Shown: piece after piece, positions 36,380 to 58,206 of the stretch
Layout of the letters: the number at the start of each line of letters is the position of its first letter
How positions within the stretch are numbered: position 1 is the first letter of the stretch
From: a virus
Strand: one strand, 5' to 3'
IMG/VR virus record: IMGVR_UViG_3300046559_000479
Coordinates: 1 to 60,646 of that record
Length of the DNA: 60,646 nt
Notes under the pieces: model-generated
Told to the model about the DNA's origin: nothing
What the model saw: only the letters and a program-made list of their open reading frames with translations
The model's database searches: none
Translations under genes and position numbers: made by a program

Positions 36380-36844
36380 TCACTTGATGCACTCAAGCAC
36401 AACTCTTATTTTCCACACTTCCTCGTACGCGTCCTGGTAGGCCGTTTCCCCAATCTCCAGGATCTTGAACCTCGCGGTAATTCCGTACAGGCCCGCGAGC
36501 CGATTCACCGCAAAGCTCCCCGCCTCGTAGTACTGGAAACTATTGAGGCACCACCCCGACTTATGCGTAGGGTCCTGCCAGTACCCGGCACCTCGGCTCG
36601 CGTTGGGGGTGATAATCTCTACCCTCGCCCCCGCCCCCATCACCCGGTGAAGCTCATTCATGAAGTGGATGCGGTCGGCAATGTGCTCGATGATGTCGTG
36701 GGCAATTACTTCCGTTACCGACGACGTTTCCCAGGGCCAAGGGAGGGACAGGTCCACAATCGCGTCGGCGGGAGGCCCTACGTCCACGTTAGTAAATCCA
36801 GGGAGGAGGATATCCGCACAACCGAGGTTCAGTTTCTTAATCAT
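36380..36844 (-). CDS. SAM-dependent methyltransferase (Methyltransf_11-like)
   Basis: 154 aa. 'KLNLGCADILLPGFTNVDVG' (motif I and acidic loop), 'VIAHDIIEHIADRIHFMNEL' and 'HRVMGAGARVEIITPNAS' are typical of small methyltransferases in polysaccharide clusters. Short for the family but the core motifs are complete. Stop overlaps no gene; start overlaps the end of the exported 701-aa gene. Confidence 0.8.
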   Translation of the reverse strand: MIKKLNLGCADILLPGFTNVDVGPPADAIVDLSLPWPWETSSVTEVIAHDIIEHIADRIHFMNELHRVMGAGARVEIITPNASRGAGYWQDPTHKSGWCLNSFQYYEAGSFAVNRLAGLYGITARFKILEIGETAYQDAYEEVWKIRVVLECIK

Positions 36845-38946
36845 TGGCGGGACACGTTCCCTCCTACTGTGACAATGACCGATCCGCCTCTAGATGTTGG
36901 TATCACTGATAAATTGCTCATAACCGGAACGCCAGTGTTAGCCGTGCGAAGTGCGGCATATAGGGTGTTGTCTGTGACCGTAACGGGGATGGTGATAGAC
37001 ACGGGAGTGAACTCCAGGCAGGTAGGCAACAGCGTACATAGATCAATTTGCAACGGAGAATAGCCCAAAAGATCCCATGCTCCCCCTACCGCACTCCCCC
37101 CTGGAACCGTCCCAGGACCATTGTAAATCACTCCATTCACATCCATACCAAAGGTAATGACCCCTGTAGAATAGGCTCCCCCAAAAGCGAAATTGTATGT
37201 CACATTGTAGGTTCCGTTTGGAACGATATATTTAAATCTGAGATCATCACCGAACCAGCAAGTCTGATACAACCCGACATCAGTCAGTGGGGGCCACCCG
37301 AACGGGCTGTAGCATACCGTATTCCCCGCAAGTCTCCAGATCGCTCCGTTCCCCGTATACCAGATGTTCCCATTCGCGTCTGGGCCATAATTACCATCCG
37401 GCGCAAGGCTTGACCCGTTAAGGTGGATGTAAATTCCCGTGTTCGGGTAGCTAAATACGTTGAAGTAAATCGCTTGGCTACTATCCGCTGTTGGCGTGAT
37501 GGTGACTATAGTAGTCTGCCGACTTGCACAAGTTGCGGGAGGCGTATAAAGTCCGCCGCTGGTCAATGTGCCGATCGATGGACTCATGGTAGCCGTAAAT
37601 GTTGTAGTCCCTGAGCCGTTTACCCACACCGGGAGTTGATACGCGGGAGCCCCACACATAAAAGAATATCCAATCGATTGCGCAGTTCCGACCATTACGG
37701 GCTGTAGGATTACAGGCATCGTGGAAGATTCGGATGAACCGTTCGTTGCAATCACAGTGACAAAATCATCCGGCGTCACTGAACCATTAGCGGGATCGAC
37801 GCGACCTGTTTGATAGCCGGGAGAGGTCACAGTCATGTCTTCTAAAGAAGATTCGTCTACAACCTCAAATTGGGTTGCCGGAACTCCTCCTCCACCAAGC
37901 ATCTCCTGTTCAAGAGCGTAGAAAAGAGTATATGTCCCAACGGCATCCGTCATGGTTTGAACAGCCATGCGGTTCCCGCCGTCGTCCATGAAGAGGCCAT
38001 AGTCCTTTACAGCGGTCAGGAAGCATTGTACGGCAGTACTATACCCAGAAATGTTAAATGAAGATTTCAGGCGCACCCTGGTTCCATACGGGATCATCCC
38101 AGCGAAAGGGTTGGGAATCGCCGTGGCGGGCCAGACGAAGTAGTTTGCATTTAGGCTATTATCTAGCGTGAACCGAAATCCATGCTTGATCGGTACCCCG
38201 TTGTCAATACAGTTCTGTATTTCCGAGTAGCGTAACGCTAGGGGGATCATGGGCATCCCAGAGGCATCGGCAGTTCCGGTTGTAGGCTGAATGTAGTTGT
38301 CGTGATACTTGTATCCGCTCTGGGCGTTACAGGTTATGCACTCGCCGACATTATCCCCAATTTTGTAGGGGGCATACACTTCGTAGAAAGTTCCGTCCTG
38401 CCGATTGACCCCCAACACATGATGGTCATTAGCCGGACTTCCGAAAAAACCAGCCTCAACTCCGATATCCGCTATCCCGAGCCACGGGAAATTGGCGTTC
38501 TGTCCCGAGGTGTAGTTAAAGAGCATCGGGATCGTAGGCGTCAAATTTGTATACAAGTTCTGAGGAAAACTGATTTCCAAGTGCAGCGCTTGAGACCCTA
38601 CTTGAGTTTGCAGATATGTGGTCAGCCCAGCATCGGTAGGTAGCGCATCGATGCGGGTGTTTATCACGTGATCGTTTGGGAGCGCCTGCACGCCTAGGAA
38701 GTTATTTTTGGCTGTCACTGATGAAGGGGCCGTATAGAGACCAGTGGAAGAGTTTATGGAACCCTTGCTTCCAGCCGCCAGGGTCCAGGTAACAGCCTGA
38801 TTTGCCGTTAACGTCATTGTGGTATTTGCGGCTACGCAGGGGATCGGGCCTCCTGGGTCTGGATGGCAAGTAGTCGTTCCGGGGGTGATCGTAGGTGCAA
38901 CTGCCCAGCAGTTAATCACCGTTAAGAAGAAAATAATCCTGTTCAT
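36841..38946 (-). CDS. Exported Ig-like and malectin-like protein, 701 aa
   Basis: Signal peptide 'MNRIIFFLTVINCWA', then an Ig-like segment ending 'GSINSSTGLYTAPSSV', a long central beta domain, a second Ig-like segment 'GTLTSGGLYTPPATC', and a malectin-like C-terminal carbohydrate-binding region ('IYIHLNGSSLAPDGNYG', 'FKYIVPNGTYNVTYNFAFG'). The GLYTAP/GLYTPP repeats are familiar from exported Acidobacteriota proteins. May be a surface adhesin, a spike or host-derived cargo. ATG at 38946 chosen for the signal peptide. Confidence 0.65.
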   Translation of the reverse strand: MNRIIFFLTVINCWAVAPTITPGTTTCHPDPGGPIPCVAANTTMTLTANQAVTWTLAAGSKGSINSSTGLYTAPSSVTAKNNFLGVQALPNDHVINTRIDALPTDAGLTTYLQTQVGSQALHLEISFPQNLYTNLTPTIPMLFNYTSGQNANFPWLGIADIGVEAGFFGSPANDHHVLGVNRQDGTFYEVYAPYKIGDNVGECITCNAQSGYKYHDNYIQPTTGTADASGMPMIPLALRYSEIQNCIDNGVPIKHGFRFTLDNSLNANYFVWPATAIPNPFAGMIPYGTRVRLKSSFNISGYSTAVQCFLTAVKDYGLFMDDGGNRMAVQTMTDAVGTYTLFYALEQEMLGGGGVPATQFEVVDESSLEDMTVTSPGYQTGRVDPANGSVTPDDFVTVIATNGSSESSTMPVILQPVMVGTAQSIGYSFMCGAPAYQLPVWVNGSGTTTFTATMSPSIGTLTSGGLYTPPATCASRQTTIVTITPTADSSQAIYFNVFSYPNTGIYIHLNGSSLAPDGNYGPDANGNIWYTGNGAIWRLAGNTVCYSPFGWPPLTDVGLYQTCWFGDDLRFKYIVPNGTYNVTYNFAFGGAYSTGVITFGMDVNGVIYNGPGTVPGGSAVGGAWDLLGYSPLQIDLCTLLPTCLEFTPVSITIPVTVTDNTLYAALRTANTGVPVMSNLSVIPTSRGGSVIVTVGGNVSRQ

Positions 38947-38947
38947 T

Positions 38948-39667
38948 TTATTGCCCCAAGAAGACTGCATTTGCGGCAACGCAGACTCCGGCACTAGCAG
39001 TCCACGTTGGATTCACCGTACCAGAGCTTACTAGATAACTAGCTCGGCCACCAAAGTTTGATCCCGATCCAGGCATATTGGTTAGTTCATTGGCGGTGAA
39101 TCCAAGGTCTACGGTGAAAGTTGCATTCGCCGCCGAAGCTGTCCCCGTCAATGTGACGCTATTTGAATTGCTGGGCGTCTCGCTTCCCCCCTGGCAGGTA
39201 CTAGCTCCCGTTGCGCCCTTATCCGAACCGGCGTCAAATACTCCGCTTGTCTTCATCCCACTGAATACGAAGTAGCAAACATCAGAGAAGCTGGCTGCGA
39301 CAGAAACGGAGAGAGAGTGCCCCGTGGACATGGACGCGGGGTTCTGCTCATAGAACACCTGAATAGAGGCATCACCCGTGAAAGCATAACGAGTGAGCGT
39401 AGTAATGCTGTTTCCTTGATCGTCTGTGACTACAGGAACGCCGAAATCGTATCCTATGGCGTAGCCCGCTATGAAGTTCCCTCCGGTGGCGTTGAAGGTT
39501 GGAGTAGTGCCGCCGTTAGCACCCAGAATCACGCAATCGCCCGTAATAAAAGTTGGAGTGGTTCCCCCGGAGCTAGCCTTGCCTGCCAGGATCGGAAGAA
39601 GGATCTGCGCTCGCAGGTTGCAGAGTGGAGCCAAAAGAAGAATAAATGCTAGGAGATAATTTGTCAT
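38948..39667 (-). CDS. Exported beta-rich protein, 239 aa
   Basis: Signal peptide 'MTNYLLAFILLLAPLCNLRA', then Ser/Thr/Gly-rich beta sequence ('TRYAFTGDASIQVFYEQNP', 'VSVAASFSDVCYFVFSG') of the type found in bacterial exported hypothetical proteins. Contains a tandem of 'GGTTPTF' segments. Function unknown; same cassette as its neighbours. Confidence 0.6.
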   Translation of the reverse strand: MTNYLLAFILLLAPLCNLRAQILLPILAGKASSGGTTPTFITGDCVILGANGGTTPTFNATGGNFIAGYAIGYDFGVPVVTDDQGNSITTLTRYAFTGDASIQVFYEQNPASMSTGHSLSVSVAASFSDVCYFVFSGMKTSGVFDAGSDKGATGASTCQGGSETPSNSNSVTLTGTASAANATFTVDLGFTANELTNMPGSGSNFGGRASYLVSSGTVNPTWTASAGVCVAANAVFLGQ

Positions 39668-39669
39668 GC

Positions 39670-41109
39670 TCAGTGCTTCGTCCATGTCCCCGAGTGCGGT
39701 AGGAACATCCAGTGCGTCGAGTCGATTCCATAAACGCAAGCTCCATCGCGGGCCGCGCCACCTGAGGTCACGTTGCCGCCCGTCGCCGTCAGCGTGCCAT
39801 CGGTGAACACCATAAACTGACCGCTCGCCGAGGTGGAGAACGTGAGCACGCCAGTGTCCGCCGCCGACCCATTCCACCCATTGTCGATACAGCGTTGGAG
39901 CCCTGATGCCGCCGTTGGCAAAGTGTACGTTACTCCTGCCCCCGCCGTTGCTTCTTGATTGACTGTAAACGCCGTTGAAAGGACTGCACTCGTCCCAGTG
40001 GTAATGACTGTGACAGCACTCCCCGACAACACAATCCAATTGGTCCCATTACAGTAGATTGATACATGATTTGTCCCGCTCCCCGCTACCACGGCCCCCT
40101 GCTCAGTTGTAGTTGAGTCCGTTACAGTGCCGATCGTGCCGTCGTAAGAGGATGAACAGGATGGGAAGTTGCTAAAGGCTACTGGTGGGTATTCCGTACC
40201 GTGCCACAGTGAACTTGGGACGGAAGCCACGGCACTCTGGTAAGAGGCACCGTCCCATGTAAAATCCTGTAGAGTAGTCGCTCCAGATGTGCAATCGGGA
40301 GCTACTCCTCCCTTGAAGATTGCATTGTACGCTACCGTACGACAGGATGTGTCCTGTATCCAAATGATTCGGTAAGGCCCAGATCCGTGAGGATTGCTAG
40401 GTACACCTAAAGTTGTGTTCCCGGACGCCATCGTTATTACCGTGACGTTGGATAAACTCCAGTCAATAGTAGTGGTGCCCCCTGATACGTAGGTAGTGGT
40501 ACTGGGTGGTGCCCAAGTCAAGGCTTTAGAGGCGTTGATGGACCCGTCAGACCCTTGGTTGAGATTAGCAGGCCCACAGATACCAGCACCAACAAACAAC
40601 TGTATGTCTCCAGCAACACCTTGAGGACAATTACTCCCTGACCCACCACCACCGCTTCCGGCGTACCCAGTTTTGTATCCATATAGGACACCAAATACCG
40701 TCCCCGTTCCCGTCAACCCAGACAGAGTGACCCGGATGAAGGGGATGTCTACGGTGCCGTTCTTAAACGTCGTCACGGCCCCGGTAGTAGAGGTGTTAGG
40801 GTTCGCCCCCGTAGCGACGGTACCGGCGTACGTGACCCAGGAACCGGGAGTGGTAGGGGTAGAGGCGGGGGCGGACTGCACCGTGATGGTGAGTCCGCTG
40901 AACCCCACGGAGGTATATTGAAACGTCCACGTTTGACAGGCGGTGAAGTAATTGGCAAAAGTGGATGTAGACCCCGCCGTGGTGCGATTGTTTATCAATA
41001 TCACACAGTCCGGGGGCGGTGGATTGTTCTGGGCACGCGCATCTTTCCCTGTGAAAAGGGCCAATGCCATCAGTAGAACAAAAAGCGAAGCGTACTTTTT
41101 CGGTCGCAT
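39670..41109 (-). CDS. Exported spike/fibre-like protein, 479 aa
   Basis: Signal peptide 'YASLFVLLMALALFTGKDARA' region, then repetitive Ser/Thr/Gly beta sequence, with segments ('WIVLSGSAVTVITTG', 'GVTYTLPTAASGLQRCI') resembling phage receptor-binding or fibre proteins. A signal peptide on such a protein is odd for a tailed phage and would fit surface display or host-derived cargo. ATG at 41109 after GGAAGGAAATAAG. The palindromic element lies inside the signal-peptide codons. Confidence 0.6.
   Translation of the reverse strand: MRPKKYASLFVLLMALALFTGKDARAQNNPPPPDCVILINNRTTAGSTSTFANYFTACQTWTFQYTSVGFSGLTITVQSAPASTPTTPGSWVTYAGTVATGANPNTSTTGAVTTFKNGTVDIPFIRVTLSGLTGTGTVFGVLYGYKTGYAGSGGGGSGSNCPQGVAGDIQLFVGAGICGPANLNQGSDGSINASKALTWAPPSTTTYVSGGTTTIDWSLSNVTVITMASGNTTLGVPSNPHGSGPYRIIWIQDTSCRTVAYNAIFKGGVAPDCTSGATTLQDFTWDGASYQSAVASVPSSLWHGTEYPPVAFSNFPSCSSSYDGTIGTVTDSTTTEQGAVVAGSGTNHVSIYCNGTNWIVLSGSAVTVITTGTSAVLSTAFTVNQEATAGAGVTYTLPTAASGLQRCIDNGWNGSAADTGVLTFSTSASGQFMVFTDGTLTATGGNVTSGGAARDGACVYGIDSTHWMFLPHSGTWTKH
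41043..41058. promoter_or_regulatory. Palindromic element, copy 12 (inside a coding sequence)
   Basis: Minus strand CTTTTCACAGGGAAAG encodes 'LFTGK' at the end of the signal peptide, about 50 bases downstream of the ATG at 41109. Confidence 0.6.
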
Positions 41110-41110
41110 C

Positions 41111-41452
41111 TTATTTCCTTCCATGTTCGTTGCGTCCATTGTGCTCATCGTCGAGCTTATCCAACCTTCGTGCAATGTCTTTCTGAACTAGCTCATCCTG
41201 TACCAGATGTACTTCCACTTGCCTACTTAGGTCCACGAGCTTTTGACGGGACCCATTCACATCTTTCCTCGTCTCGTCCACCTTCAACTCAACACGATCT
41301 ATCTTGCCGCTCAGGCTCTCAAACTCATTCAGGTTCTGGATATGCCGGATCTCCACACGCTTGTCCCAACGGTGGTAAGCGAATAAGACCCCGCCGACTG
41401 TTCCTACTCCTGTGATAATGTTCCCCAGGCTTATGGTTGTGTCGAAAACCAC
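41111..41452 (-). CDS. Membrane-anchored coiled-coil protein, 113 aa
   Basis: N-terminal hydrophobic segment ('ISLGNIITGVGTVGGVLFAY') followed by a long charged helix ('SLSGKIDRVELKVDETRKDV' onward). Resembles small phage holin-associated or spanin-like proteins. Ends two bases before the next ATG. Function unknown. Confidence 0.6.
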   Translation of the reverse strand: MVFDTTISLGNIITGVGTVGGVLFAYHRWDKRVEIRHIQNLNEFESLSGKIDRVELKVDETRKDVNGSRQKLVDLSRQVEVHLVQDELVQKDIARRLDKLDDEHNGRNEHGRK

Positions 41453-41482: not shown

Positions 41483-43609
41483 TTAGTGCCTCGGCCAGAA
41501 GTACCCGTGCAGTCCCGCGACTACGTTCCCCACCCCCGCCGTCAGTGCCCCCGTGACGTTCGGTGCCGCGACGATGTACCGGATCAGATCACCGGACCTG
41601 ACTTGAAGCCCCCCGGCAATGGGTGACATGTTCTGTAGCGTGCCGATGCTCACCTCCATCAACCCACAGTCCCGCATGAAGCGGCCCGCAGATTCCAGCC
41701 GCCAAACAATGTCCCCAGAGCCCTCGACAAAGATTGGCACGGGGAACGCGGTGGGATCGGTAATGTACCCGTGGTACTGGCCCAGGATCACGCCATCGTA
41801 GCCTATGGGGACACGGAACTGGAATATCACGTTGTCACCCGAGGCCACCGTGGGTAACGGGATCGCCCCGGTAGGATTGAAGGCGATGGCTCCCTCGGGC
41901 GGTCCCATCGGCACTTCCTCGTGCTCGGAAAAGTTCCCGCCCCAGTCCCGCTCGTCAGTACAAAAACAGAACGGCTTCACCCCACACTTGAGGAGTTCCC
42001 GGTTGATGAGCTTATAGAGGAGGTATTCTCGGCCTAAGCACGAATCAAAGTGGTTGAGGATGACGTGAATGAATCCTCTACCCCCCGTTGACGGTACTGG
42101 CGGGATGACGATAGAGCAATTTGCAGTTGCCGTTGCCCCGAGTGAATCAGTCGCTTGCACCGTGAAGGAGAAGGTGCCGGACAGTAATGGAATCCCCGTG
42201 ATGATGCCGGTGGCGGGATCGAGGGTTAGGCCAGGTGGGAGAGAACCGGAAATGATGGCGTAGGTGTAAGGGGGCGTACCACCTGTCGCTACTACCGTCC
42301 CCGTGTAGAGGATGTTCAACGTGGCGGAACCGATGGGACACGTGACGATGACGGGGGCCACGACTCCTATGGATAAATGAAACTGCCCTTGATATATCTC
42401 CGTCCCCGCTTGAATTGGGAAAAGTCCAATCATTGCTCTGACGCCAAAACTAAGTTGGCGAACAGAGACAGAGTTGGGGGTGTTCTCCCCGTTAAGACCA
42501 CCCGCTTGAGGCGGTGGCGTAACGGGGGGGTCCACCGCCTTGTCCCAGTAGACCGATTCCACCGCCCAAGGTCCTACCAACGCGGGGGACGTGGACTGGA
42601 GTACTTGATTCGGAGTATTCCCCGGCCCAGGCCCTTGCCACGTCCACATGGAGGTGAGAGTGAGGCCGTCTGGCGAAATGCAGAAGTCCGTCCAGAAAGT
42701 GTCCTCGTCCGCATTGATATCCGAGGCCACCACCACCGTTGCAAACACTGGCGGCGACACACTCATATCTGCCGTAAGCATGGTTGGTTGGATGGTGGAG
42801 GGGGTAGGGAAGAAGGGGAGGCACCAACCAATCTTGTTTTCCGCCGCTACAAATTTCCCCTGCGCGTTCCACCCTTGGCCGAGATCGTAGCGATTGTCGT
42901 TCCAAGGGGTGGAGTAGGGGAACGCGACGGATTTTGCCGAGAACCCACCACCCGAGGTCCAGGTAGCCACGTAGTACTGGGCATCCACCTGTGAGTCCCA
43001 CGTCATCACCACCGTGTCGGCATTGTCAATCCCCATGAGGTTGACGAAGTTTGAAGCGGATAGACTGCCCGCCTGGAGTAGGTGAGGGGTGCCCCAGACT
43101 CCCGCTGAGGAACACGTTACCGCGAGTACGCTACCGGTGCCTGATGACGTATCCGTGTAGAATGCAACAAAGGTCCCCGTTGAGGTCCGTGCTAGAAGTT
43201 GGTTTGGTGCCGAGGCCCCCGCATTCGGCCCCCCCGTGGCAATCGAAGTCCACGTGTCGGTAGCCATGTTGAAACTGAAAATCGACAGTGGGTTAGAAAA
43301 CTTACCTACCCCTTGTTGCGTGAGGATGTAAAGGATATTGCCGCCAGACGACGGGTAGAAGCAGGAACTAAACCAGTCTTGGATTCCCCCTGTTGGTGCT
43401 CCTGGGATGTCTTGTTCGGTGAAGGTCACTCCACTGTCAGTGGATTTGAAAACCCCGGTACGGATTGCTACCTGGGTAACGGCGTCGAAGACGGACAATA
43501 CTTCGTAGATCGCGCCACCGCGCTCAAACGGGCCTTGGTTTCCGTCTCCTAGGTTGTACCCATAGATGATGTCCCCAGGCTGAATGATGTGTGGTGTTGG
43601 TCCCGGCAT
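41483..43609 (-). CDS. 708-aa beta-rich virion/receptor-binding protein with Ig-like domain
   Basis: N-terminal 380 residues look like a BNR/beta-propeller ('FKSTDSGVTFTEQDIPGAP', 'LLARTSTGTFVAFYTDTSSG'). Residues about 415-500 are a putative Ig (He_PIG) domain ('GTPPYTYAIISGSLPPGLTL', 'TGIPLLSGTFSFTVQATDSL'). The last about 200 residues ('VPIGYDGVILGQYHGY', 'FVEGSGDIVWRLESAGRFM') match the 222-aa protein encoded next door. Likely a multi-domain spike or vertex protein. No signal peptide. Confidence 0.65.
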   Translation of the reverse strand: MPGPTPHIIQPGDIIYGYNLGDGNQGPFERGGAIYEVLSVFDAVTQVAIRTGVFKSTDSGVTFTEQDIPGAPTGGIQDWFSSCFYPSSGGNILYILTQQGVGKFSNPLSIFSFNMATDTWTSIATGGPNAGASAPNQLLARTSTGTFVAFYTDTSSGTGSVLAVTCSSAGVWGTPHLLQAGSLSASNFVNLMGIDNADTVVMTWDSQVDAQYYVATWTSGGGFSAKSVAFPYSTPWNDNRYDLGQGWNAQGKFVAAENKIGWCLPFFPTPSTIQPTMLTADMSVSPPVFATVVVASDINADEDTFWTDFCISPDGLTLTSMWTWQGPGPGNTPNQVLQSTSPALVGPWAVESVYWDKAVDPPVTPPPQAGGLNGENTPNSVSVRQLSFGVRAMIGLFPIQAGTEIYQGQFHLSIGVVAPVIVTCPIGSATLNILYTGTVVATGGTPPYTYAIISGSLPPGLTLDPATGIITGIPLLSGTFSFTVQATDSLGATATANCSIVIPPVPSTGGRGFIHVILNHFDSCLGREYLLYKLINRELLKCGVKPFCFCTDERDWGGNFSEHEEVPMGPPEGAIAFNPTGAIPLPTVASGDNVIFQFRVPIGYDGVILGQYHGYITDPTAFPVPIFVEGSGDIVWRLESAGRFMRDCGLMEVSIGTLQNMSPIAGGLQVRSGDLIRYIVAAPNVTGALTAGVGNVVAGLHGYFWPRH

Positions 43610-43631
43610 CTTTTCTTATTCCGGGTTCAGA

Positions 43632-43670
43632 CTACCGGGGGTACACGAACCACCCCGTGATGCTACAATC
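43632..43670 (-). pseudogene. Remnant of the 222-aa gene 3' end
   Basis: Minus strand encodes 'DCSITGWFVYPR' and a TAG, matching the intact end 'VVSITGWVYPR' plus stop at 44339-44371 with one extra residue and diverged codons. It lies on the far side of the HNH gene, mirroring the repressor case at 23268-23339. Confidence 0.65.
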
Positions 43671-43676
43671 AAATTC

Positions 43677-45640: not shown

Positions 45641-45822
45641 TGCAACGTCAACCTCTCTTTAAGACGGAAATTCTCCCAGCGCAAGGATGAGATCACCTCC
45701 CCTAACCGGCGTAGATTGTACGAGGCCAAGAAGGAATGGAAGGCCGGTTCCTTCCCAGGGTCGTGGTACAGTCCATCGGAATACATCACGGTGTTGTCAC
45801 GGGCCTGTGTCACCCCTAGCAC
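45637..45822 (-). CDS. Small helical protein, 61 aa
   Basis: GTG at 45822 overlaps the previous stop and follows CGGAGGATACC. 'EPAFHSFLASYNLRRLGEVI' and 'SSLRWENFRLKERLTL' are helical and amphipathic. Shorter start preferred over a 102-aa frame that overlaps the capsid-like gene. May be a scaffold or chaperone for its neighbours; inference. Confidence 0.5.
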   Translation of the reverse strand: MLGVTQARDNTVMYSDGLYHDPGKEPAFHSFLASYNLRRLGEVISSLRWENFRLKERLTLQ

Positions 45823-46670: not shown

Positions 46671-46677
46671 GGGGACT

Positions 46678-47103: not shown

Positions 47104-47159
47104 GGTATCGCGCTCCTTAAAAATCTTTCGGGCATACGGCCCCGACTCTTACCCATTAC

Positions 47160-47176
47160 CTTTTTCCCTGTGAAAG
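47160..47176. promoter_or_regulatory. Palindromic element, copy 13
   Basis: Minus strand CTTTCACAGGGAAAAAG in the 234-bp gap upstream of the candidate capsid genes. Confidence 0.75.
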
Positions 47177-47263
47177 GCCGGAGTGCCGCCGCGTGGGAGG
47201 GATAAGGGGGACGCGAGCAACGCCCCAATTCCCCTGGGTAAGCAGCACCCCGGACCCATCGGA

Positions 47264-47982: not shown

Positions 47983-48039
47983 ATATTTGTGTTTTCATTT
48001 TCCTTTCTGAGATGAGCGTGGCAAAGGGCGAGTGCCCTA

Positions 48040-50926: not shown

Positions 50927-51385
50927 TTACAGCTTCGGTGCTGCTTCCTCTCCTGCCTTCACCACTCCCGGACCAACCACAGGAGTAACCGGCACTCCCG
51001 CCGCCACCGCCGCGACATCCGCCGCCCTCCCTTTCACGGCGGTATTGTAGATGAGCCAATTGAACCCGTACGACTTCATAGCACTCACCCCCGCGCTGTA
51101 AATGGCCGGTCCCGTCAACCCCGTGATCGTCAATGCCCCCAGGCTCGGGTCATAGTGGTAATGAATCCCCACCCCCGCGATCAACGCGGCCAGCCACGAT
51201 AACGCCCTGTTCAGCCCCGACGACTCCTGGGAGAAAGCCTTGAGCACGGGCCACTGACTGTTCTTCACCGCCTGGATGAGAGCAACGGAAATGGCAGAGG
51301 TCGAGATTATCGCGGGCAAATCCGTCGATACCGCCATCGGGTTCTCCACCGCCGCCTGTGCCGCCGCTTGAAGTAATAGCATCAT
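50927..51385 (-). CDS. Membrane protein, 152 aa
   Basis: Double ATG at 51385 after GGGAGC. 'IISTSAISVALIQAVKN', 'ALSWLAALIAGVGIHYHYD' and a later amphipathic region suggest two spans, holin-like in outline ('aal..g.g.~y.y'). Ala/Val-rich C-terminus. In the virion module, so an internal-membrane protein is also possible. Confidence 0.55.
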   Translation of the reverse strand: MMLLLQAAAQAAVENPMAVSTDLPAIISTSAISVALIQAVKNSQWPVLKAFSQESSGLNRALSWLAALIAGVGIHYHYDPSLGALTITGLTGPAIYSAGVSAMKSYGFNWLIYNTAVKGRAADVAAVAAGVPVTPVVGPGVVKAGEEAAPKL

Positions 51386-51420
51386 CCTAAAGTTGCTCCC
51401 ACGCCCCCTTCCCCTTCCCC

Positions 51421-51642
51421 TTACCTGCCCCTCTCCCAAAATGGACGAGTGACATCGCCACCGCTCCCCGTGTAATTCAACTCACGATTTGCAAACAGGA
51501 GGATGAGGATAATCAGCAACACCCCTACCGCCCACTTCGCCGGGGCGAAGGTAGGAAACGATCTATCGCACACGTAGAACAACCCCCACCCGAGGGCGGC
51601 GAGTACCGCGATGCCGATGATGATTTCAATGAGTTGGCCCAT
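51421..51642 (-). CDS. Small membrane protein, 73 aa
   Basis: ATG at 51642 with AAGGAG. Two spans: 'LIEIIIGIAVLAALGWGLFYV' region and 'WAVGVLLIILILLFAN', with a short exposed C-terminus. Candidate virion membrane protein. Confidence 0.6.
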   Translation of the reverse strand: MGQLIEIIIGIAVLAALGWGLFYVCDRSFPTFAPAKWAVGVLLIILILLFANRELNYTGSGGDVTRPFWERGR

Positions 51643-51652
51643 GTTGAACTCC

Positions 51653-52123
51653 TTAGAACGCCTTCGCCGCCGCCCGGTACGCCCGTCTCCCTCTCCCCGC
51701 GTACGAGTGTTGCTCCCCACCTACGAACATGAACAGGGCCAGTGCCGCACCTGCCGCCCAGACTGGGACGCCAAAGAATGTCGACTGCAACGCGGCCATA
51801 TAGTTCCCAGCGGAAAGGTTCCCGGTAAAGGTCCCGTAGTCCGTGGTGAAGTCACCCAAGCCACGGATACCATTGATCTGGCCCCCGCCACATCCACCCC
51901 CACAGCCTCCCCCGCACCCGCACCCACTCACACCCTGACCAATCAGCTTCGTCTGTCCCCGCGTGTAATCCTTCACGGGATTCTGTGGGACTGGAAATGA
52001 TCCGGGTAGAATCTCACTGATGCCGCGAATGTACTTCACCGGTTGCACGGGATTCTGCGGCACAACATAGAATCCGGGTAAGAGATCCCCAAGCCCCGGT
52101 GCCGGATGATGACTGAGTTGCAT
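51653..52123 (-). CDS. Cys/Gly-rich virion membrane protein with repeated PQNP motif
   Basis: 156 aa. Two consecutive copies of a motif, 'GLGDLLPGFYVVPQNPV' and 'GISEILPGSFPVPQNPV', then 'GCGCGGGCGGGCGGG' and a membrane segment 'VPVWAAGAALALFMFVG' with a basic tail. The PQNP motif also ends the 337-aa basic protein. The Cys-Gly cluster might form disulfides or bind metal. Function unknown. Confidence 0.55.
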   Translation of the reverse strand: MQLSHHPAPGLGDLLPGFYVVPQNPVQPVKYIRGISEILPGSFPVPQNPVKDYTRGQTKLIGQGVSGCGCGGGCGGGCGGGQINGIRGLGDFTTDYGTFTGNLSAGNYMAALQSTFFGVPVWAAGAALALFMFVGGEQHSYAGRGRRAYRAAAKAF

Positions 52124-52140: not shown

Positions 52141-52605
52141 CTATTCCTTCGCCAGAAAAAACGCCCCGACCACCCCAGCCAAAAGCAGGGTTGTTGTCGA
52201 GAGCCCAAACAGGTTCGACGTGCTCGGGTTCGTCAGGGCCGCACTGGTGCTCCCGCTCGCCAAGTTAATCACGCCACCTTGCAACATCACTCCGGGACAC
52301 AGGGGCATCGTATTGTTCAGTGCATCCAGGGCGGAGATGATTTGCCCTCTCAAGTCCCCCGCTGGGAGTGCGTTTATTACGGTAGCGATCACACTCACGT
52401 TGATGTTGGTGGGGATGTACCCAGTAAGATTCGTCGTCACCGAGTTCACCGTCATCATCTGCCCCGCCCAGTTGTTCAGAGTGTTCTGGATGTCGGACTC
52501 GTACACCCCAGTACAATCCCCCGTGACGTTGAATGAGATTACCGTGCCGGGTTGGAGTACGTCCGTATCACTCATCCCGAGATTTCCCAGCCCGTGCAAT
52601 CTCAT
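52141..52605 (-). CDS. Virion-type membrane protein, 154 aa (C-terminal span)
   Basis: Starts 'MRLHGLGNLGMSDTD', then a soluble beta/alpha domain ('DVLQPGTVISFNVTGDCTG', 'NVSVIATVINALPAGDLRGQ'), ending with a span 'TTTLLLAGVVGAFFLAKE'. Tail-anchored layout is shared by most neighbours. Function unknown. Confidence 0.6.
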   Translation of the reverse strand: MRLHGLGNLGMSDTDVLQPGTVISFNVTGDCTGVYESDIQNTLNNWAGQMMTVNSVTTNLTGYIPTNINVSVIATVINALPAGDLRGQIISALDALNNTMPLCPGVMLQGGVINLASGSTSAALTNPSTSNLFGLSTTTLLLAGVVGAFFLAKE

Positions 52606-52612: not shown

Positions 52613-52939
52613 CTACCGTCTCCCCTTTAAAAGAAAGAACGCGAGTATCCCCCCTGCAACATAGAGGTACGTGTTGGGAATCCCCGCAATCAAACTGGAC
52701 GTGGACGGAATTGGGAGACAGGCCAAATCGTTCGGGTCCATGTATTGCCCACTCGGACACGCGGCACTGATGTTAGGGGGACAATACGTCTGCCCCGGTG
52801 CCAGTGGTCCCATCGACCCTTGCGGAATACAGGGAGGTGGGGCCGACGCCGTAGCGCACCCGGCAATGGTATCCCCCGTGATGGGATCGACCGCCCCCAC
52901 CACACACGTCCCGTCCGTCGCCACCACTCCCATCCTCAT
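52613..52939 (-). CDS. Cys-rich tail-anchored protein, 108 aa
   Basis: Eight or so cysteines in the first 80 residues ('GTCVVGAVDPITGDTIAGCA', 'PPPCIPQG', 'YCPPNISAACPSGQ', 'LACLPIP'), then span 'TYLYVAGGILAFFLLKGRR'. Disulfide-rich ectodomain on a membrane anchor. ATGA start. Confidence 0.6.
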   Translation of the reverse strand: MRMGVVATDGTCVVGAVDPITGDTIAGCATASAPPPCIPQGSMGPLAPGQTYCPPNISAACPSGQYMDPNDLACLPIPSTSSLIAGIPNTYLYVAGGILAFFLLKGRR

Positions 52940-53136
52940 TTCTTTGCGGCTCCTAATGCCACCACGCCCGCCCCGACCAACCAGAACCACCAGGGAGTAT
53001 CACAGGCGGTGGCACTGGTCCCGCTCACTCCCGTATCGACCCCACTTGCCTCCGCTGCCGTTTGCGTTGGCCCCGCCACGGTAACGTAGGGCCTCGCCTG
53101 ACAGTCCATCTGGTTAAACCAGCCCAGGCACATCAT
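52936..53136 (-). CDS. Small tail-anchored protein, 66 aa
   Basis: Short Cys-containing ectodomain ('MMCLGWFNQMDCQARP') and Thr/Ser-rich middle, then 'PWWFWLVGAGVVALGAAKK' as membrane anchor. ATGA coupling on both sides. Confidence 0.6.
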   Translation of the reverse strand: MMCLGWFNQMDCQARPYVTVAGPTQTAAEASGVDTGVSGTSATACDTPWWFWLVGAGVVALGAAKK

Positions 53137-53750
53137 TGGATTGTTTGACCTCCTACGGGACGGTTGCGGAAAACGGACGGGGCTCCGATCCGGGGCCGGT
53201 TGTTTGCGAGGCTACCGCCGAAACTCATGGAGGGGACTTGAGCCACCGTGTTGGCCGGAACCACGCCACGCAACCCACTCACCCCTACGTTGGGATTGGC
53301 CGGGTTAATCCCCGCCGCCGTCAGCGCAGAAAGGAACTGGTCCACGCTCATCCCCGGCATGGGGTCAACTCGGGCACCGAACGCGGCACCGAACTGTTGG
53401 CCGGTTAAAGCCGGTGGGTACAGTTGATTCCGGTAATAATCCCACTGGTCGGCATTCATACTCGTGACACCGCCCGCCGCCGTCAGGAGTTTGGTTCGTA
53501 CGTCCGCCGTTGTGCTGGGGGCCGGTTGCGTGGACCCGCCTGGAGTCTGGGTCTGGGTCGTGACGGTGGTGGTGGCAGGGGCCGTGGATTGTGCCGCCCC
53601 ACCAAACCACGTGTCCCACCAAGTCAGGGCTACCTGTTGCCCCGAGGCATTGAACGCGGCACCGGATGGCCCGTACCTCGTCACGTACCAATACGCGGCA
53701 CCCAGCCCCCCGACCACCAGTACCATCGTCATCATGTTGTCTTTTTTCAT
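53133..53750 (-). CDS. N-terminally anchored virion-type protein, 205 aa
   Basis: Anchor 'MMTMVLVVGGLGAAYWYVT' then Thr/Gln/Pro-rich linker, and a helical domain ('DVRTKLLTAAGGVTSMNADQ', 'DQFLSALTAAGINPANPNVG') followed by 'GVSGLRGVVPANTVAQVPSM' and an Arg/Asn-rich end. Opposite topology to its neighbours. Function unknown. Confidence 0.6.
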   Translation of the reverse strand: MKKDNMMTMVLVVGGLGAAYWYVTRYGPSGAAFNASGQQVALTWWDTWFGGAAQSTAPATTTVTTQTQTPGGSTQPAPSTTADVRTKLLTAAGGVTSMNADQWDYYRNQLYPPALTGQQFGAAFGARVDPMPGMSVDQFLSALTAAGINPANPNVGVSGLRGVVPANTVAQVPSMSFGGSLANNRPRIGAPSVFRNRPVGGQTIQ

Positions 53751-54043
53751 TACTCGTGTCCCTTCTTCCCACCAAACATGAGGAAGGCCAGTCCCGCGAG
53801 AATCCCCGCCGCCAATAGGGGATTGTCATTCACCCACTGGTTGATCCCGGAACAGGAGGGGCCTACCACTACGGGGGTGCTATTGGTGATGGAGGGCATC
53901 GGGTTGAGCAGGGATGAGGGAGTAAGCCCCGGTTGCGGTGACGCCGTAAGAAGCTGGGAGGTCGCGGTCATGGACGGCATCGACGAGGTAGTGGATACCG
54001 GCATCGAATCTGCGGGGGTCGAGATGTAAGAGAGTTCAGCCAT
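53750..54043 (-). CDS. Tail-anchored Ser/Thr/Pro-rich protein, 97 aa
   Basis: Low-complexity Ser/Thr/Pro/Met N-terminal 70 residues, then 'NPLLAAGILAGLAFLMFGG' anchor and a basic end 'KKGHE'. Member of the tail-anchored set. Confidence 0.55.
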   Translation of the reverse strand: MAELSYISTPADSMPVSTTSSMPSMTATSQLLTASPQPGLTPSSLLNPMPSITNSTPVVVGPSCSGINQWVNDNPLLAAGILAGLAFLMFGGKKGHE

Positions 54044-54046: not shown

Positions 54047-54358
54047 CTAGTTCTCCATCAACTTTCCAACAAAAAATCCGACACCACCAAACACTACCGC
54101 CGCCCAACTCGGGTTGTGAATCATATCGTGAGGGCCACCAATCTCAGCACACAACGTCATTGGATTATCCGGTGGAGACTGACCAACGGGCAAAGTTATC
54201 TGTTGCCCGGTTTGAAGATTCTGCCACGCAATTGTGCCTTGTCCTCCAGCCGTAAGCAAAGACATTTGTGTCCAGTGCGTTCCACTTGACGTAGTTCCAC
54301 CACACATCAGCTTTGGGCCAACGAACGCACCGACCGCAGCTAAGATGAATGGCATCAT
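54047..54358 (-). CDS. Membrane protein, 103 aa
   Basis: N-terminal 'MMPFILAAVGAFVGPKLMCG' and C-terminal 'AAVVFGGVGFFVGKLMEN' segments flank a polar loop. Paired short glycine-rich spans resemble membrane proteins of internal-membrane phages. ATGATG start coupled to upstream gene. Confidence 0.55.
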   Translation of the reverse strand: MMPFILAAVGAFVGPKLMCGGTTSSGTHWTQMSLLTAGGQGTIAWQNLQTGQQITLPVGQSPPDNPMTLCAEIGGPHDMIHNPSWAAVVFGGVGFFVGKLMEN

Positions 54359-55038
54359 TTCTTCTTCATCACCATCAGCAACACGACGGCACCACCGGCC
54401 AGTGCTACCCACATTGGTATACCGACGAATGGGATTGGGTCAGTGAGCCAGCTCCAGCTATACGTCGCCGGTCCCGTGTTCGTAATACTCGTACCGTTCG
54501 CCAGTGCCACACTCCCACCCTGAGTCTGGTTGTTCACGACCTGGGTACTCGTCACGGGAGTAGTGACCACGGGTGGAGCCAGTACGTTGCCACCAGCTTG
54601 GTTTGTCGTCACCCCCGTCGTGTTGGGTGCCACGGTATTGAGCACATTCGGTGCCGGGACGTACGTGGGGGGAGCCACGATCTGTCCTGATTGAATCAGG
54701 TAGGCAGTATTCGCTACCGTGCTGTTGTACGCGGCGGTATATTGCGCCACGTAGGAACTGATGAGGGCAGAGACGGAATTGGGATCACAAGGAGTAGGGC
54801 TCACGTCCGCGCACGCGTTGATGGCGGCACTCGTCAACGTCTCCTGTACAACTGCGGGAGTGGCCGCGTTGCCCTGCTCTACGGCAAACTGCAACCCGTT
54901 CATAAACGAGTTGAAGTAGGTGGTGATTTGCCCCGTCAAGTCGTACGCCCCGAGCCCGTGGACGCCGGTTGGTAATCCCGGCACCGTCAGGGCGGGGACG
55001 ATTCCGTTGAGGCGGGGGGAGAAGTCGGAAAGTCTCAT
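54355..55038 (-). CDS. Tail-anchored virion-type protein, 227 aa
   Basis: Starts 'MRLSDFSPRLNGIVPALTV', contains 'GVHGLGAYDLTGQITTYFN', a helical domain with a Cys pair ('INACADVSPTPCDPNS'), a Thr/Val/Asn-rich linker, and anchor 'PMWVALAGGAVVLLMVMKKK'. The N-terminal MRL..FSP is shared with the next gene upstream. Function unknown. Confidence 0.6.
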   Translation of the reverse strand: MRLSDFSPRLNGIVPALTVPGLPTGVHGLGAYDLTGQITTYFNSFMNGLQFAVEQGNAATPAVVQETLTSAAINACADVSPTPCDPNSVSALISSYVAQYTAAYNSTVANTAYLIQSGQIVAPPTYVPAPNVLNTVAPNTTGVTTNQAGGNVLAPPVVTTPVTSTQVVNNQTQGGSVALANGTSITNTGPATYSWSWLTDPIPFVGIPMWVALAGGAVVLLMVMKKK

Positions 55039-55043
55039 GTGAT

Positions 55044-55862
55044 TTAATCGCCCCCCATCATCGTGAAGGCGAGCACCCCGCCCCCGATTAAAAGCAGTGG
55101 GAGTGGAAAGGAGGAAAGGAATCCACCCCCACTCGCACCTGTAGTCGTGGAACCGGATGCGGAACTTGATCCCGCCAACAGTGCCAACGCTTGCCCCGCC
55201 TCGGGTGGATCGGGGACGACGGTAGGATCGTTCGCAATGGGATCGCGGAGGTCGGCGAACGCATCGCACCCGGTACACAGGCCACCGCCGACTTGTACTG
55301 CGTTGGGAGCATTGCAGCACCAGGAGGAGGCACCGCCTCTCTGCCGTTCACTGATGCACCGTTGACCAGCGGCACCCAACGAGGGATCACCACAGGCTTT
55401 TACCAGTGCCGTCCAACCTACATCGAAATTGTTCAACGCGGCCAACTGGAGGGACTTGTAGTGGACCGGGGCATTCATGTACTGGTTAAGATTCTGCTGC
55501 CAGTACGTTTGGAGTTGGTTGGCAATACTCGTTGCCGCCACACACGTCTGCCCGCACCCCCTGAAGAGGGAGGCGATACCGATACCGATTGCCGCGAGGC
55601 CCACCACGATGGCTGCAATTGGTGCGGCGGGTCCGAACGCGGCGGAAATCATTCCCATGTGCGCGAGGCCGGTAAGAATGGTCCCAGTCATTGCCGCCCC
55701 CTGCATTGCTTCGGATGCGATGGTGGTGGAAGTGACATCGAGGCCGAGGGAACCTACACCAGTGCCCCGTGTACCCTTGGCCCGTGCGTAGGTACGCGGG
55801 GCGAATGCGCTGGGGATGAATGCGAGGGGGTGGCCCGTGGTGGGGGAGAAGTCGAGGCGCAT
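55044..55862 (-). CDS. Multi-span virion-type membrane protein, 272 aa
   Basis: Starts 'MRLDFSPTTGHPLAFIPSAF'. Hydrophobic Gly/Ala-rich region ('ILTGLAHMGMISAAFGPAAP', 'IAAIVVGLAAIGIGIASLF') near residues 75-120, a Cys-rich soluble domain ('CGQTCVAA', 'SSWCCNAPN', 'GLCTGCDAF') and C-terminal anchor 'LPLLLIGGGVLAFTMMGG'. The glycine-rich hairpin could act as a fusion or pore element. ATG at 55862 overlaps the preceding stop (TAATG). Confidence 0.6.
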   Translation of the reverse strand: MRLDFSPTTGHPLAFIPSAFAPRTYARAKGTRGTGVGSLGLDVTSTTIASEAMQGAAMTGTILTGLAHMGMISAAFGPAAPIAAIVVGLAAIGIGIASLFRGCGQTCVAATSIANQLQTYWQQNLNQYMNAPVHYKSLQLAALNNFDVGWTALVKACGDPSLGAAGQRCISERQRGGASSWCCNAPNAVQVGGGLCTGCDAFADLRDPIANDPTVVPDPPEAGQALALLAGSSSASGSTTTGASGGGFLSSFPLPLLLIGGGVLAFTMMGGD

Positions 55863-56059
55863 TAGAATCTGATATCCTCGACTTGAAATGTCATCCCTAA
55901 AACGACTGGTACGATCACGCAAAGTACGAATCGCGGCACGTAAGAAAAGTGGGAACAAAAAGCATCGACGTAGTAGTAGTGGGAGTGAAGTTGTTGTCCT
56001 ATGCGCGATAGGAATGGCAGTTGGCTACTGGCTTGGCAAACTTGGCAAACGGCCCTCAT
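55862..56059 (-). CDS. Doubtful minus-strand ORF, 65 aa
   Basis: Fits the chain of coupled starts (TAAAATG before it, TAATG at its end) and has one hydrophobic stretch ('VPRFVLCVIVPVVLGMTF'). Its composition (many Tyr, His, Cys, Gln) is unlike its neighbours, and a more protein-like ORF lies on the other strand. Only one of the two is likely real. Confidence 0.35.
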   Translation of the reverse strand: MRAVCQVCQASSQLPFLSRIGQQLHSHYYYVDAFCSHFSYVPRFVLCVIVPVVLGMTFQVEDIRF

Positions 56060-56155: not shown

Positions 56156-56764
56156 TTACCGTCCCCGGCTCATCATCATGAACGCGAGTCCCACCACCGC
56201 CACCATCATTAACGTGCTACTGTTGATCCCCCCGAAACTCCCGCTCCCAATCGGCGTCACGAAACTCCCTTGCGCCCCGCCCCCGGTATTTCCATAGATC
56301 CCCGGAAGGTTCTGGGTATTCCCCGTGGGCTGAGAATAAATCACATTCCCCTGTGGGTCCTTGTAATACGTCCCAGGGTTCTGTGCCGCCATGATCTTCG
56401 CCATGCTCGTGCTGGACACGTTGATGACGTTCGCCAGTGCATTCCAATTGAAGTCGGGGCTCCCGGATGGAATAACGGTAGGAACAGTACCCCCGCCTCC
56501 CGCCCCCGGTGCCGCCCCGCCACTATCCATCGTGCCGAGGTACACGGAACCATCGGGGCACATTCCCCCGGCATCCACCTGGGCATTCAAACAGTCCCCA
56601 ATCCCCTGCACCCCTCTCACCCCGCCCCGACTCTGCATCCGGTCCACGCCACCCACGAGTAACCGTTGCGCCCCCCAGTCCACGCGGCGATACTGTCGAG
56701 GAATCATCAATTCAGCCGGTAGACTTCTCGCCCCCGGTGGCAGTGTCTGAGTAATGACGTTCAT
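56156..56764 (-). CDS. Tail-anchored Gly/Pro-rich virion-type protein, 202 aa
   Basis: 'MNVITQTLPPGARSLPAELM', 'GVRGVQGIGDCLNAQVDAGG', a Gly-rich linker, and C-terminal anchor 'TLMMVAVVGLAFMMMSRGR'. The 'P..M.P..Y.(R)' N-terminus and GIG motif relate it to neighbours. Function unknown. Confidence 0.6.
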   Translation of the reverse strand: MNVITQTLPPGARSLPAELMIPRQYRRVDWGAQRLLVGGVDRMQSRGGVRGVQGIGDCLNAQVDAGGMCPDGSVYLGTMDSGGAAPGAGGGGTVPTVIPSGSPDFNWNALANVINVSSTSMAKIMAAQNPGTYYKDPQGNVIYSQPTGNTQNLPGIYGNTGGGAQGSFVTPIGSGSFGGINSSTLMMVAVVGLAFMMMSRGR

Positions 56765-57232
56765 CTAATCGTTCCTCCATTCCGGGAACACGCCGCCCAA
56801 TTTCTCCACCATCTGAATCCGGGTGGCGTCGGGCATATTCGTCAGCCCGTTGATCTGGATGAAGCTCCCCACGTCGATGATGGTCTGCAACATTCCGTCC
56901 GGCGTGGGGAACGTCCCCGTGATGGTATAGATGCGCGGGTCCTCATCCCCGCCCGCGTTGAAGTATTGCAACTTGCAAAACGGTGGGTACGAGTGATTCA
57001 ATCCCGTGTCCGCGATCTCAAGCACGGCCCGTTCCGCGTTATCAAACGTGAGGAGTTCCAAATACTCCACGAGATCGTTGCACTGGTGCTTGGTGGCGAA
57101 TCCCAGCATTTCACGTAGGGGGAGTTGTGGCGTCCAGGGGAATTTCTGGTTGGGATCGAACGGGACGTACATCGCGTCCTCTTTCGTGGGACGAATCACT
57201 TGCTTGAGGCTTGCGGGTAAAGGGAGTGTCAT
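56765..57232 (-). CDS. Hypothetical soluble virion-module protein, 155 aa
   Basis: Not recognised. 'YVPFDPNQKFPWTPQLPLRE', 'CNDLVEYLELLTFDNAERAV', 'GTFPTPDGMLQTIIDVGSFI' and 'EKLGGVFPEWRND'. No membrane segment, unlike most neighbours. TAAATG junction with the protease-like gene. Confidence 0.55.
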   Translation of the reverse strand: MTLPLPASLKQVIRPTKEDAMYVPFDPNQKFPWTPQLPLREMLGFATKHQCNDLVEYLELLTFDNAERAVLEIADTGLNHSYPPFCKLQYFNAGGDEDPRIYTITGTFPTPDGMLQTIIDVGSFIQINGLTNMPDATRIQMVEKLGGVFPEWRND

Positions 57233-57961
57233 TTAACTGTGTGCCACCTTCCAAACTTGTTTCGCGCCCCACCAGATACCGAGGGCGAGTGCCGCCGTAC
57301 CTACCGCGTTCCCCACGAGCCAAGCCAACCGATCCCACACGGGCCACTCTTTATACTTCCCGTATTGGTTGGGGACTTCCCACCCCGGATACTCGCCATG
57401 ACTGGCATCAAGGGGGAGGCGTTCCACTTGGCCCGCGTCATTCACGGGGTACGCCACGACATACACGTGGGAGAACTGGGTAGGTACTCTTTCATCCGCC
57501 CCGACAGTCACAAAGGCGCACCCGATCCCATTCGCCTTCAATAACGCGGCCAAGTAGCACGAGAAGTCGTCACAGTCCCCTACCCCCTTGCCCTCGTCCA
57601 CGTACCGGGCCATGTCGAGGGGCCGGATACTCGTCTCAATCACTTCCTCTTCGGGATATCCCCCGATCCCCGCCCCCGTCACCTCGTCCCGCTGGAATCG
57701 AATCCTGCCATTCTTCTTCCACGCGTGTTGATAGAGGGAGTAGGCGCGGGACTTCTCGGACCCCTCGCCTGCCAGTCCTACTGCCCTCGCCTTGAACCAC
57801 GGGTCCGCACTGTCCTGGGCGGCACGCTCCAGCATGAGTGCCAACGTCTGCCCCACCTGGGTATCCGGGTCCCAGCTTAGGTTCTGAACCCGGTACTTCA
57901 CCTCGCCCAATTGGGAATGGTACTGGGTGCCCTGTGCCCCGGCCTGAAATCCCAGTCTCAT
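57233..57961 (-). CDS. Transglutaminase-like cysteine protease with C-terminal anchor
   Basis: 242 aa. Papain/transglutaminase core: Cys130 in 'GVGDCDDFSCYLAALLKANG', His165 in 'FSHVYVVAYP' and Asp185 in 'LPLDASHGEYPGW', the Cys-His-Asp order of the family. Anchor 'GTAALALGIWWGAKQVWKV' near the end. Could be a virion maturation protease, a crosslinking enzyme or a peptidoglycan-peptide hydrolase. First gene of the virion operon; 'MRLGF' start as in four others; palindromic element copy 15 is 22 bp upstream. Confidence 0.75.
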   Translation of the reverse strand: MRLGFQAGAQGTQYHSQLGEVKYRVQNLSWDPDTQVGQTLALMLERAAQDSADPWFKARAVGLAGEGSEKSRAYSLYQHAWKKNGRIRFQRDEVTGAGIGGYPEEEVIETSIRPLDMARYVDEGKGVGDCDDFSCYLAALLKANGIGCAFVTVGADERVPTQFSHVYVVAYPVNDAGQVERLPLDASHGEYPGWEVPNQYGKYKEWPVWDRLAWLVGNAVGTAALALGIWWGAKQVWKVAHS

Positions 57962-57983
57962 ATAAAGGAAGGCCCTCGCCCAC

Positions 57984-57998
57984 CTTTCCCTGTGAAAG
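57984..57998. promoter_or_regulatory. Palindromic element, copy 15
   Basis: Minus strand CTTTCACAGGGAAAG at the head of the virion operon, in the divergent region 57962-58206. Confidence 0.75.
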
Positions 57999-58153
57999 AA
58001 TTGGGCCGCTCAATACCTGTTGGGTTGAGTAGGCGGGCGACTAGCACCCTGGGAGCGGCCACGGAGGGAGTTTTGCACACTTTGGAGGTTCGTAACAGGT
58101 ACTAGGTATTGGTAACTGTGTCTCCGGTACTCCCAGTACCCTGCCCATGACAC

Positions 58154-58182
58154 TTGCGCATCAATAACTTGCCGTGTATAGT
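58154..58182 (+). promoter_or_regulatory. Rightward promoter for the 623-aa gene
   Basis: TTGCGC (58154-58159), 17-bp spacer, TATAGT (58177-58182). Predicted start near 58189, which rules out the upstream GTG at 58174 and favours TTG at 58207 after AGGGAG. The rest of 57999-58153 shows no gene I trust. Confidence 0.55.
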
Positions 58183-58206
58183 AGGTCGTCAGGGAGAAAA
58201 AGAGCC

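Follow-up and report, generated by a model that had tools for sequence, protein, structure and literature searches.

What kind of particle is made by a virus whose large circular genome devotes a whole region to small membrane proteins, basic proteins and beta-rich proteins, and in which no terminase or portal is recognised? The question is posed by the IMG/VR record IMGVR_UViG_3300046559_000479, analysed here over its full 60,646 bases (hereafter the window), and by the virion-like module that occupies 36.8-60.1 kb of it. The circle measures about 60.5 kb because the record carries a 139-nt repeat at its ends, which bears out the size given in the initial annotation of this DNA. We consider it likely that this module makes the particles of a group of tailless, membrane-containing double-stranded DNA (dsDNA) bacteriophages with circular genomes of 44-62 kb, of the same general kind as Salisaeta icosahedral phage 1 (SSIP-1), and the group is probably a new family of such phages. 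The initial annotation had suggested a possible much larger, undescribed sort of membrane-containing tailless virus. A tailless membrane virus is still the best reading, but SSIP-1 is a precedent in kind. The assumption that such phages reach only 10-20 kb does not hold, since the circular dsDNA genome of SSIP-1, a tailless phage with an internal membrane, has 44 kb (PMC6260650); because of this genome size, the group is to be seen as a larger relative in kind of a known phage, not as wholly without precedent.

A virion block inherited as a unit

Successive scans of IMG/VR, seeded with one beta-rich protein, recovered 19 further contigs of the same group, which amounts to about twenty environmental viruses with the window included. 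End repeats are present in 12 of the 16 records examined, and genomes range from 44 to 62 kb; the relatives with end repeats measure 58,934, 61,475, 60,180, 61,617, 58,406, 57,918, 56,208, 55,349, 49,288, 46,919 and 44,456 bp, the additional finds being fragments and contigs of 49-56 kb. Many end repeats are exactly 127 nt, the assembler length, as expected for circular assemblies, and one record (G009) opened inside the conserved block, which fits a circular dsDNA genome. Complete members have an identical order of genes, namely a divergent coiled-coil gene followed by those for the transglutaminase-like protein, a 304-residue membrane protein, the PQNP protein (undetected in three complete members), the NP-rich 611-residue protein, the basic 337-residue protein and beta-rich proteins of 214, 141, 284 (double), 210 and 222 residues. 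The block is syntenic in 13-14 genomes, more than chance would give. Replication genes vary between members: those of the window are almost entirely absent from G003, G008, G009 and G011. Since the order is fixed while the replication genes differ, the virion block is a unit of inheritance and the remainder exchangeable. The module had been placed at 36841-58206; it is real, but it extends to 60078, because the neighbouring plus-strand gene 58174-60078 belongs to it, and the HNH endonuclease gene at 43584-44336 within it is no part of the virion.

DNA and protein look-ups with core proteins in 50,697 phage records found nothing, and no description of this virus group was met in the literature searched, a search that left most subscription papers and the SSIP-1 paper outside. 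A 3.6-kb piece of the group (L021, CAJBIA010000097.1) is binned in a metagenome-assembled genome of Methylophilaceae, an uncertain host link.

A transglutaminase-like protein shared with SSIP-1

The transglutaminase-like gene of the initial annotation is present at 57233-57961 on the minus strand (Pfam Transglut_core, E 3.4e-4). Its product, a Cys-His-Asp protein with a C-terminal membrane anchor, has 13 homologues, most with a hydrophobic C-terminus, and the catalytic-type motifs GDCDD, SHVY and DxSHG are invariant in 12 homologues. The family profile is matched by gp34 of SSIP-1, a structural protein with a C-terminal anchor, at E 6e-14 (hhalign 97%), through two colinear stretches (9.7e-9 and 9.7e-5) that extend into the helical region ahead of the catalytic core. 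This match is specific, because a cellular transglutaminase, although recognised by Pfam at 1.5e-22, gives no match to the family profile; the sequence profile of the protein compared with PDB chains gave nothing. A weak relative (E 2e-4) occurs on a 4.5-kb human faecal 'Bacteriophage sp.' scaffold (L078, MT839222.1).

Divergent from this gene lies that of a 634-residue coiled-coil protein (58174-60078, plus strand), which has homologues in 14 records, 568-698 residues long in full copies, and combines a conserved N-terminal domain (YRxWPV...KYIDK...RYGSGDY) with a C-terminal helical domain. Pfam and PHROG scans gave it no function, and its profile found only designed or generic helix-bundle matches among PDB chains; an internal scaffold is a possible role. 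The gene order of the group parallels that of SSIP-1 (NC_017983), where coiled-coil gp33 and transglutaminase gp34 are followed by small anchored proteins, structural gp41 and gp44, beta-type gp45-48 and the anchored lytic transglycosylase gp54. The remaining core proteins have no significant sequence similarity to SSIP-1 proteins.

Beta-rich proteins and a tandem jelly-roll-like protein

The capsid-like cluster that had been noticed in the sequence is present at 44339-47982, on the minus strand, and five beta-rich proteins were counted in it. The best conserved protein of the group (40-56% identity in 14 homologues) is the 214-residue product of 47338-47982, a candidate single jelly-roll major capsid protein that may be the main shell protein. 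It is followed by a 141-residue single beta-barrel protein (46678-47103), a 284-residue tandem, or double, jelly-roll-like protein that is a candidate capsid or vertex protein (45816-46670), a 210-residue protein assigned to the group core by homologues and synteny (45008-45640), and a 222-residue protein (44339-45007) whose domain recurs as the C-terminus of a 708-residue fibre-like protein. By hhalign, the two halves of the 284-residue protein are homologues of one another (E 3.9e-10), and each is also a homologue of the 141-residue protein (E 4.9e-14 and 2.3e-10); judged from these profiles, the 284-residue protein contains the domain of its neighbour duplicated in tandem. In one relative (G002), the two halves are encoded as separate open reading frames.

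The AlphaFold model of the 284-residue protein, built with 13 homologues, has a predicted local distance difference test score (pLDDT) of 81.9 and a predicted template modelling score of 0.84, and it consists of two domains made almost entirely of beta strands. The structural check suggested in the initial annotation for the products of 45008-47982 gave a largely favourable answer: this protein is predicted as a tandem beta barrel whose best PDB match in Foldseek is the PM2 major capsid protein P2 (E 6.3e-5, probability 0.99), ahead of PR772 coat chains, with the coat proteins of SGIV and STIV also listed; in a viral structure library, Gluconobacter phage GC1 (a tectivirus) and a Megaviridae capsid protein rank high. 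The model of the 214-residue protein has weak structural matches, enriched in viral jelly rolls. Sequence profiles of these two proteins found nothing among PDB chains, and the only informative Pfam or PHROG matches of ten central module proteins were a weak transglutaminase core and an immunoglobulin (Ig) domain.

Search for a packaging motor and tailed-phage hallmarks

The initial annotation saw no terminase, portal, tail or packaging ATPase, and this stands: no terminase, portal, HK97 capsid or FtsK-family protein is among the Pfam and PHROG matches listed for window proteins, scans that were the only search for a portal. Family-specific models agree, since Terminase_6N (at E<=1), Phage_capsid and FtsK_SpoIIIE each found 0 of 12 group genomes while control genomes were positive; DUF87/HerA was found in one of the 12, G003, outside the conserved block, so that no terminase or FtsK/HerA protein is common to these genomes. 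The only tail-named match, 'tail length tape measure', stems from the lysozyme-like domain of 28664-29170. Walker A motifs had been described in UvrD-like, DinG-like and Sak4-like genes only. The first two are the strict matches in the window and the Sak4-like gene (15289-16140) carries GLDKCGKT, but a further strict match, due to chance, lies in the resolvase gene 25095-25784. The DinG, UvrD and Sak4 genes were rejected as packaging genes, as they belong to the swapped replication module. A strict Walker A scan revealed no P-loop ATPase common to all members.

These results bear on whether the window could be a tailed phage (Caudoviricetes) with a head, portal and terminase too diverged to recognise, the beta-rich proteins being tail fibres, decoration or baseplate. 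A circularised genome of about 60 kb with PolA, UDG, DinG, UvrD, Sak4-like and ERCC4 genes would be typical for a tailed phage, and Ig-domain and fibre-like proteins are present. We nevertheless regard this as improbable: no genes of tailed phages are better conserved than those of the terminase ATPases, but the group has no P-loop ATPase in common; the models for terminase, capsid and FtsK find nothing where controls are positive; and the many small anchored proteins, the tandem jelly roll and the SSIP-1 link favour a membrane virion.

A motor could also exist but be module-swapped or borrowed from the host, in the form of the Sak4/RecA-like product of 15289-16140, the HerA-like protein of G003 or host FtsK. 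In SSIP-1 the RecA-like ATPase gp40 is annotated as a structural protein, and Sak4-like genes cluster in eight records of the group; these genes, however, are neighbours of replication genes and distant from the virion block, and the strict Walker A scan showed no likely ATPase among the called genes of G008 and G011, though both have end repeats and the full block. Such a motor is therefore unlikely in our estimation.

Membrane-anchored, NP-rich and basic proteins

Membrane spans were called by hydropathy with a strict cut-off. About twelve small membrane proteins had been claimed, and several are indeed present, but the count was generous: a clear span was found in 8 of the 17 genes between 47.3 and 58.1 kb. 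Upstream of the beta-rich cluster, all on the minus strand, lies first the gene of a 337-residue protein (48040-49053), whose Arg/Lys-rich half is followed by membrane spans and a VVPQNP motif. In agreement with the initial proposal of a DNA-condensing type, its first 200 residues contain 41% Arg and Lys and 2 acidic residues, and NP motifs split the Arg/Lys-rich half into segments; we consider it a candidate precursor of DNA-condensing peptides. Its neighbour is the 611-residue NP-repeat protein of the group core (49069-50904), with 10 NP dipeptides against 1.3 expected. In all members of both families, NP dipeptides are enriched about 5-10 fold, and shuffled sequences almost never reach the observed number. 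The basic protein and the PQNP protein, a 156-residue membrane protein with two copies of the motif GxGDLxPGxFVVPQNP (51653-52123; profile search and hydropathy), have in common a recurrent 17-residue motif that ends in (V/I)P(Q/E/N)NP. A general role of the GxG motif in processing was rejected, because this motif is only modestly enriched over shuffled sequences, unlike the NP repeats.

The other genes of this stretch encode a 170-residue membrane protein (50927-51439), a 99-residue protein with two spans (51421-51720), a 154-residue protein with a C-terminal span (52141-52605), a 125-residue protein with a hydrophobic C-terminus (52613-52990), a small hydrophobic protein of 66 residues conserved in some relatives (52936-53136), a 205-residue protein with a hydrophobic N-terminal segment conserved in several (53133-53750) and a conserved 97-residue protein with a hydrophobic C-terminal region (53750-54043). 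They continue with a C-terminally membrane-anchored protein (54355-55320), the 304-residue core protein with two predicted spans and homologues in 14 records (55044-55958), a 202-residue protein with a C-terminal span (56156-56764) and a 155-residue open frame without homologues in other records by profile search (56765-57232).

So many membrane proteins would also suit an enveloped or pleomorphic vesicle virus, similar to pleolipoviruses or plasmaviruses, or a virus-like element, in which the beta-rich proteins are spikes and there is no icosahedral shell. This would explain the missing packaging ATPase; SSIP-1 gp34 has a weak transglutaminase-like match in a pleolipovirus, and Sec-type signal peptides occur in the family of the surface protein encoded at 39670-41175. 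The tandem jelly roll and the five distinct beta-rich proteins encoded in fixed order nonetheless resemble capsid modules, an icosahedral phage has a homologue of the transglutaminase-like protein in its virion, and pleolipovirus genomes are small (13 kb), which together make a vesicle virus a poor candidate.

Weighing the tailless icosahedral reading

Several points weigh against the tailless, membrane-containing phage that we favour. None of the group's particles has yet been observed. That a motor is missing means that none was detected, and G003 (L019) does encode a HerA/DUF87-type ATPase in its early region (record positions 47154-48635, E 1.2e-11). The structural result is tempered by the low template modelling scores (TM-scores) of the Foldseek jelly-roll matches, 0.2-0.3 (about 0.23) with a large root-mean-square deviation, and by cellular double-barrel proteins such as peptidylglycine monooxygenase, which match the model of the 284-residue protein almost equally well; for these two reasons, its fold class is supported while its capsid role comes from context. 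The model of the 214-residue protein is poor (pLDDT 60, six sequences used), and the comparison of its family with SSIP-1 gp45/46, the best among the pairs beyond the transglutaminase, is suggestive only (E 0.013, probability 3%).

Other features of the window

The minus strand carries nearly all genes of the window. Fibre-like proteins of the module, on the same strand, comprise the 708-residue protein with an Ig domain (He_PIG, E 6e-13) and the C-terminal domain already mentioned (41483-43609), a 501-residue surface or fibre-like protein with a Sec-type signal peptide (39670-41175) and a 717-residue fibre or adhesin-like protein without a homologue in the group by profile search (36841-38994). 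In many genomes, members of the 39670-41175 family start with a Sec-type signal peptide or a hydrophobic N-terminus, an uncommon trait among structural proteins of phages. The HNH endonuclease of 43584-44336 (plus strand), identified by its PHROG match and by comparison with relatives as a mobile insertion, and a second one at 22634-23263 (plus strand) lie opposite to their surroundings and look like homing insertions, with a relative in G002.

By Pfam and PHROG matches, the early region (1-27 kb) contains PolA, UDG, UvrD-like, DinG-like, ERCC4-like, Sak4-like, DnaJ-like, resolvase and ParE-like genes, the ParE-toxin-like gene 26322-26600 being near the resolvase gene. A ParB-like gene (1-645, minus strand) crosses the circle junction and continues at 60174-60644, as PHROG ParB matches and the terminal repeat indicate. 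Lysis and lysozyme-type genes follow at 27-29 kb, among them that of a lytic transglycosylase/lysozyme-like protein with a C-terminal membrane anchor (28664-29170, minus strand; PHROG lysozyme-type matches), present in 12 records. The glycan cassette seen in the initial annotation is there, with four family-2 glycosyltransferases and epimerase/methyltransferase genes at 29.4-36.8 kb (29438-36844), but it is mostly private to this genome and outside the group's conserved core.

The element TTTCCCTGTGAAA (in gene direction TTTCACAGGGAAA) has 12 exact copies in the window, at 1064, 3833, 4499, 14028, 16993, 20465, 33600, 36324, 41044, 47163, 50907 and 57985, where about 0.16 would be expected even if one mismatch were tolerated, and zero copies among 15 relatives. 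Several lie directly upstream of gene starts, for example 3 nt ahead of the start of 49069-50904. It is possibly a leader or ribosome-binding element of the host of this virus.

Proposed particle and its place among known viruses

We propose that the five beta-rich proteins (47338, 46678, 45816, 45008 and 44339) would form an icosahedral shell and its vertices around a host-derived membrane in which the small anchored proteins would sit. The basic NP-rich protein may condense the DNA and tether it to the inner face of this membrane, as a precursor of membrane-anchored DNA-condensing peptides that could be cut at NP by the transglutaminase-fold enzyme. The latter would mature the particle, either as a cysteine protease, possibly acting at NP or GxGD...PQNP motifs, or as a cross-linker. 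It can be hypothesised that the shell assembles on a vesicle of membrane, either around the condensed genome or onto it, that the genome would be enclosed by condensation and co-assembly at the membrane without pumping by a dedicated motor, and that the anchored lysozyme opens the cell wall during entry.

SSIP-1 is the closest parallel. Like the group, it has circular dsDNA, a homologous C-terminally anchored transglutaminase-like protein, structural in SSIP-1, that adjoins a coiled-coil protein, and then small anchored proteins, structural proteins of about 130-260 residues, fibres and an anchored lytic transglycosylase. SSIP-1 has a T=49 capsid with an internal membrane, and its two major capsid proteins are reported to be of a possible single jelly-roll type (PMC6356626, PMC6260650). 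The group differs in genomes of up to 62 kb, the tandem jelly-roll protein, long NP-rich proteins and replication genes. The corticovirus PM2 and the tectiviruses PRD1/PR772 (Bamfordvirae) have the major capsid proteins closest to the predicted fold of the 284-residue protein, together with small membrane proteins and membrane-associated lytic enzymes; unlike them, the group has no common FtsK/HerA ATPase, genomes three to six times larger, and two barrels still recognisable as duplicates by sequence. As a packaging ATPase common to the group was looked for and not found, and as the tandem protein is a candidate for the capsid role, we do not place the group in Bamfordvirae. The Thermus phage P23-77 (Matshushitaviridae, with a single jelly-roll pair) is likewise tailless, membrane-containing and circular dsDNA with a run of small structural proteins, but has 17 kb and encodes a packaging ATPase; kinship with it (Helvetiavirae) was rejected, as VP16 and VP17, compared as sequence profiles, had no match to group families.

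To our knowledge, all known bacterial viruses of tailless, lipid-containing build are smaller, and nearly all encode a packaging motor. Prokaryotic double jelly-roll viruses have been summarised as having about 7-18 kb, nearly all with an FtsK/HerA packaging ATPase (PMC5894146), a range outside which the group falls at 44-62 kb. Jelly-roll capsid viruses reported without a packaging ATPase are FLiP (Finnlakeviridae) and the Odin group (PMC5894146, PMC6260650); FLiP has 9 kb of single-stranded DNA and the Odin group is among the smallest. As the known motor-less jelly-roll viruses are tiny, a 44-62-kb group without a common motor would show another way to enclose large dsDNA genomes.

More tentatively, and with considerable doubt, all these elements may belong together in a tailless internal-membrane dsDNA phage lineage, new at the level of family or higher, of up to 62 kb and without a virus-encoded motor, in which an Arg/Lys-rich membrane-anchored precursor condenses the DNA and is cut at NP motifs by a virion protease of transglutaminase fold, and in which the shell combines single jelly rolls with a tandem one born from a still visible duplication of a neighbouring gene. 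If this were true, the tandem protein would be a living intermediate of the transition from single to double jelly rolls. The group would give the isolated phage SSIP-1 relatives and would make the single-to-double jelly-roll duplication testable by sequence, and the families of 47338, 46678, 45816, 57233 and 58174 are markers with which these viruses can be found and cultured.

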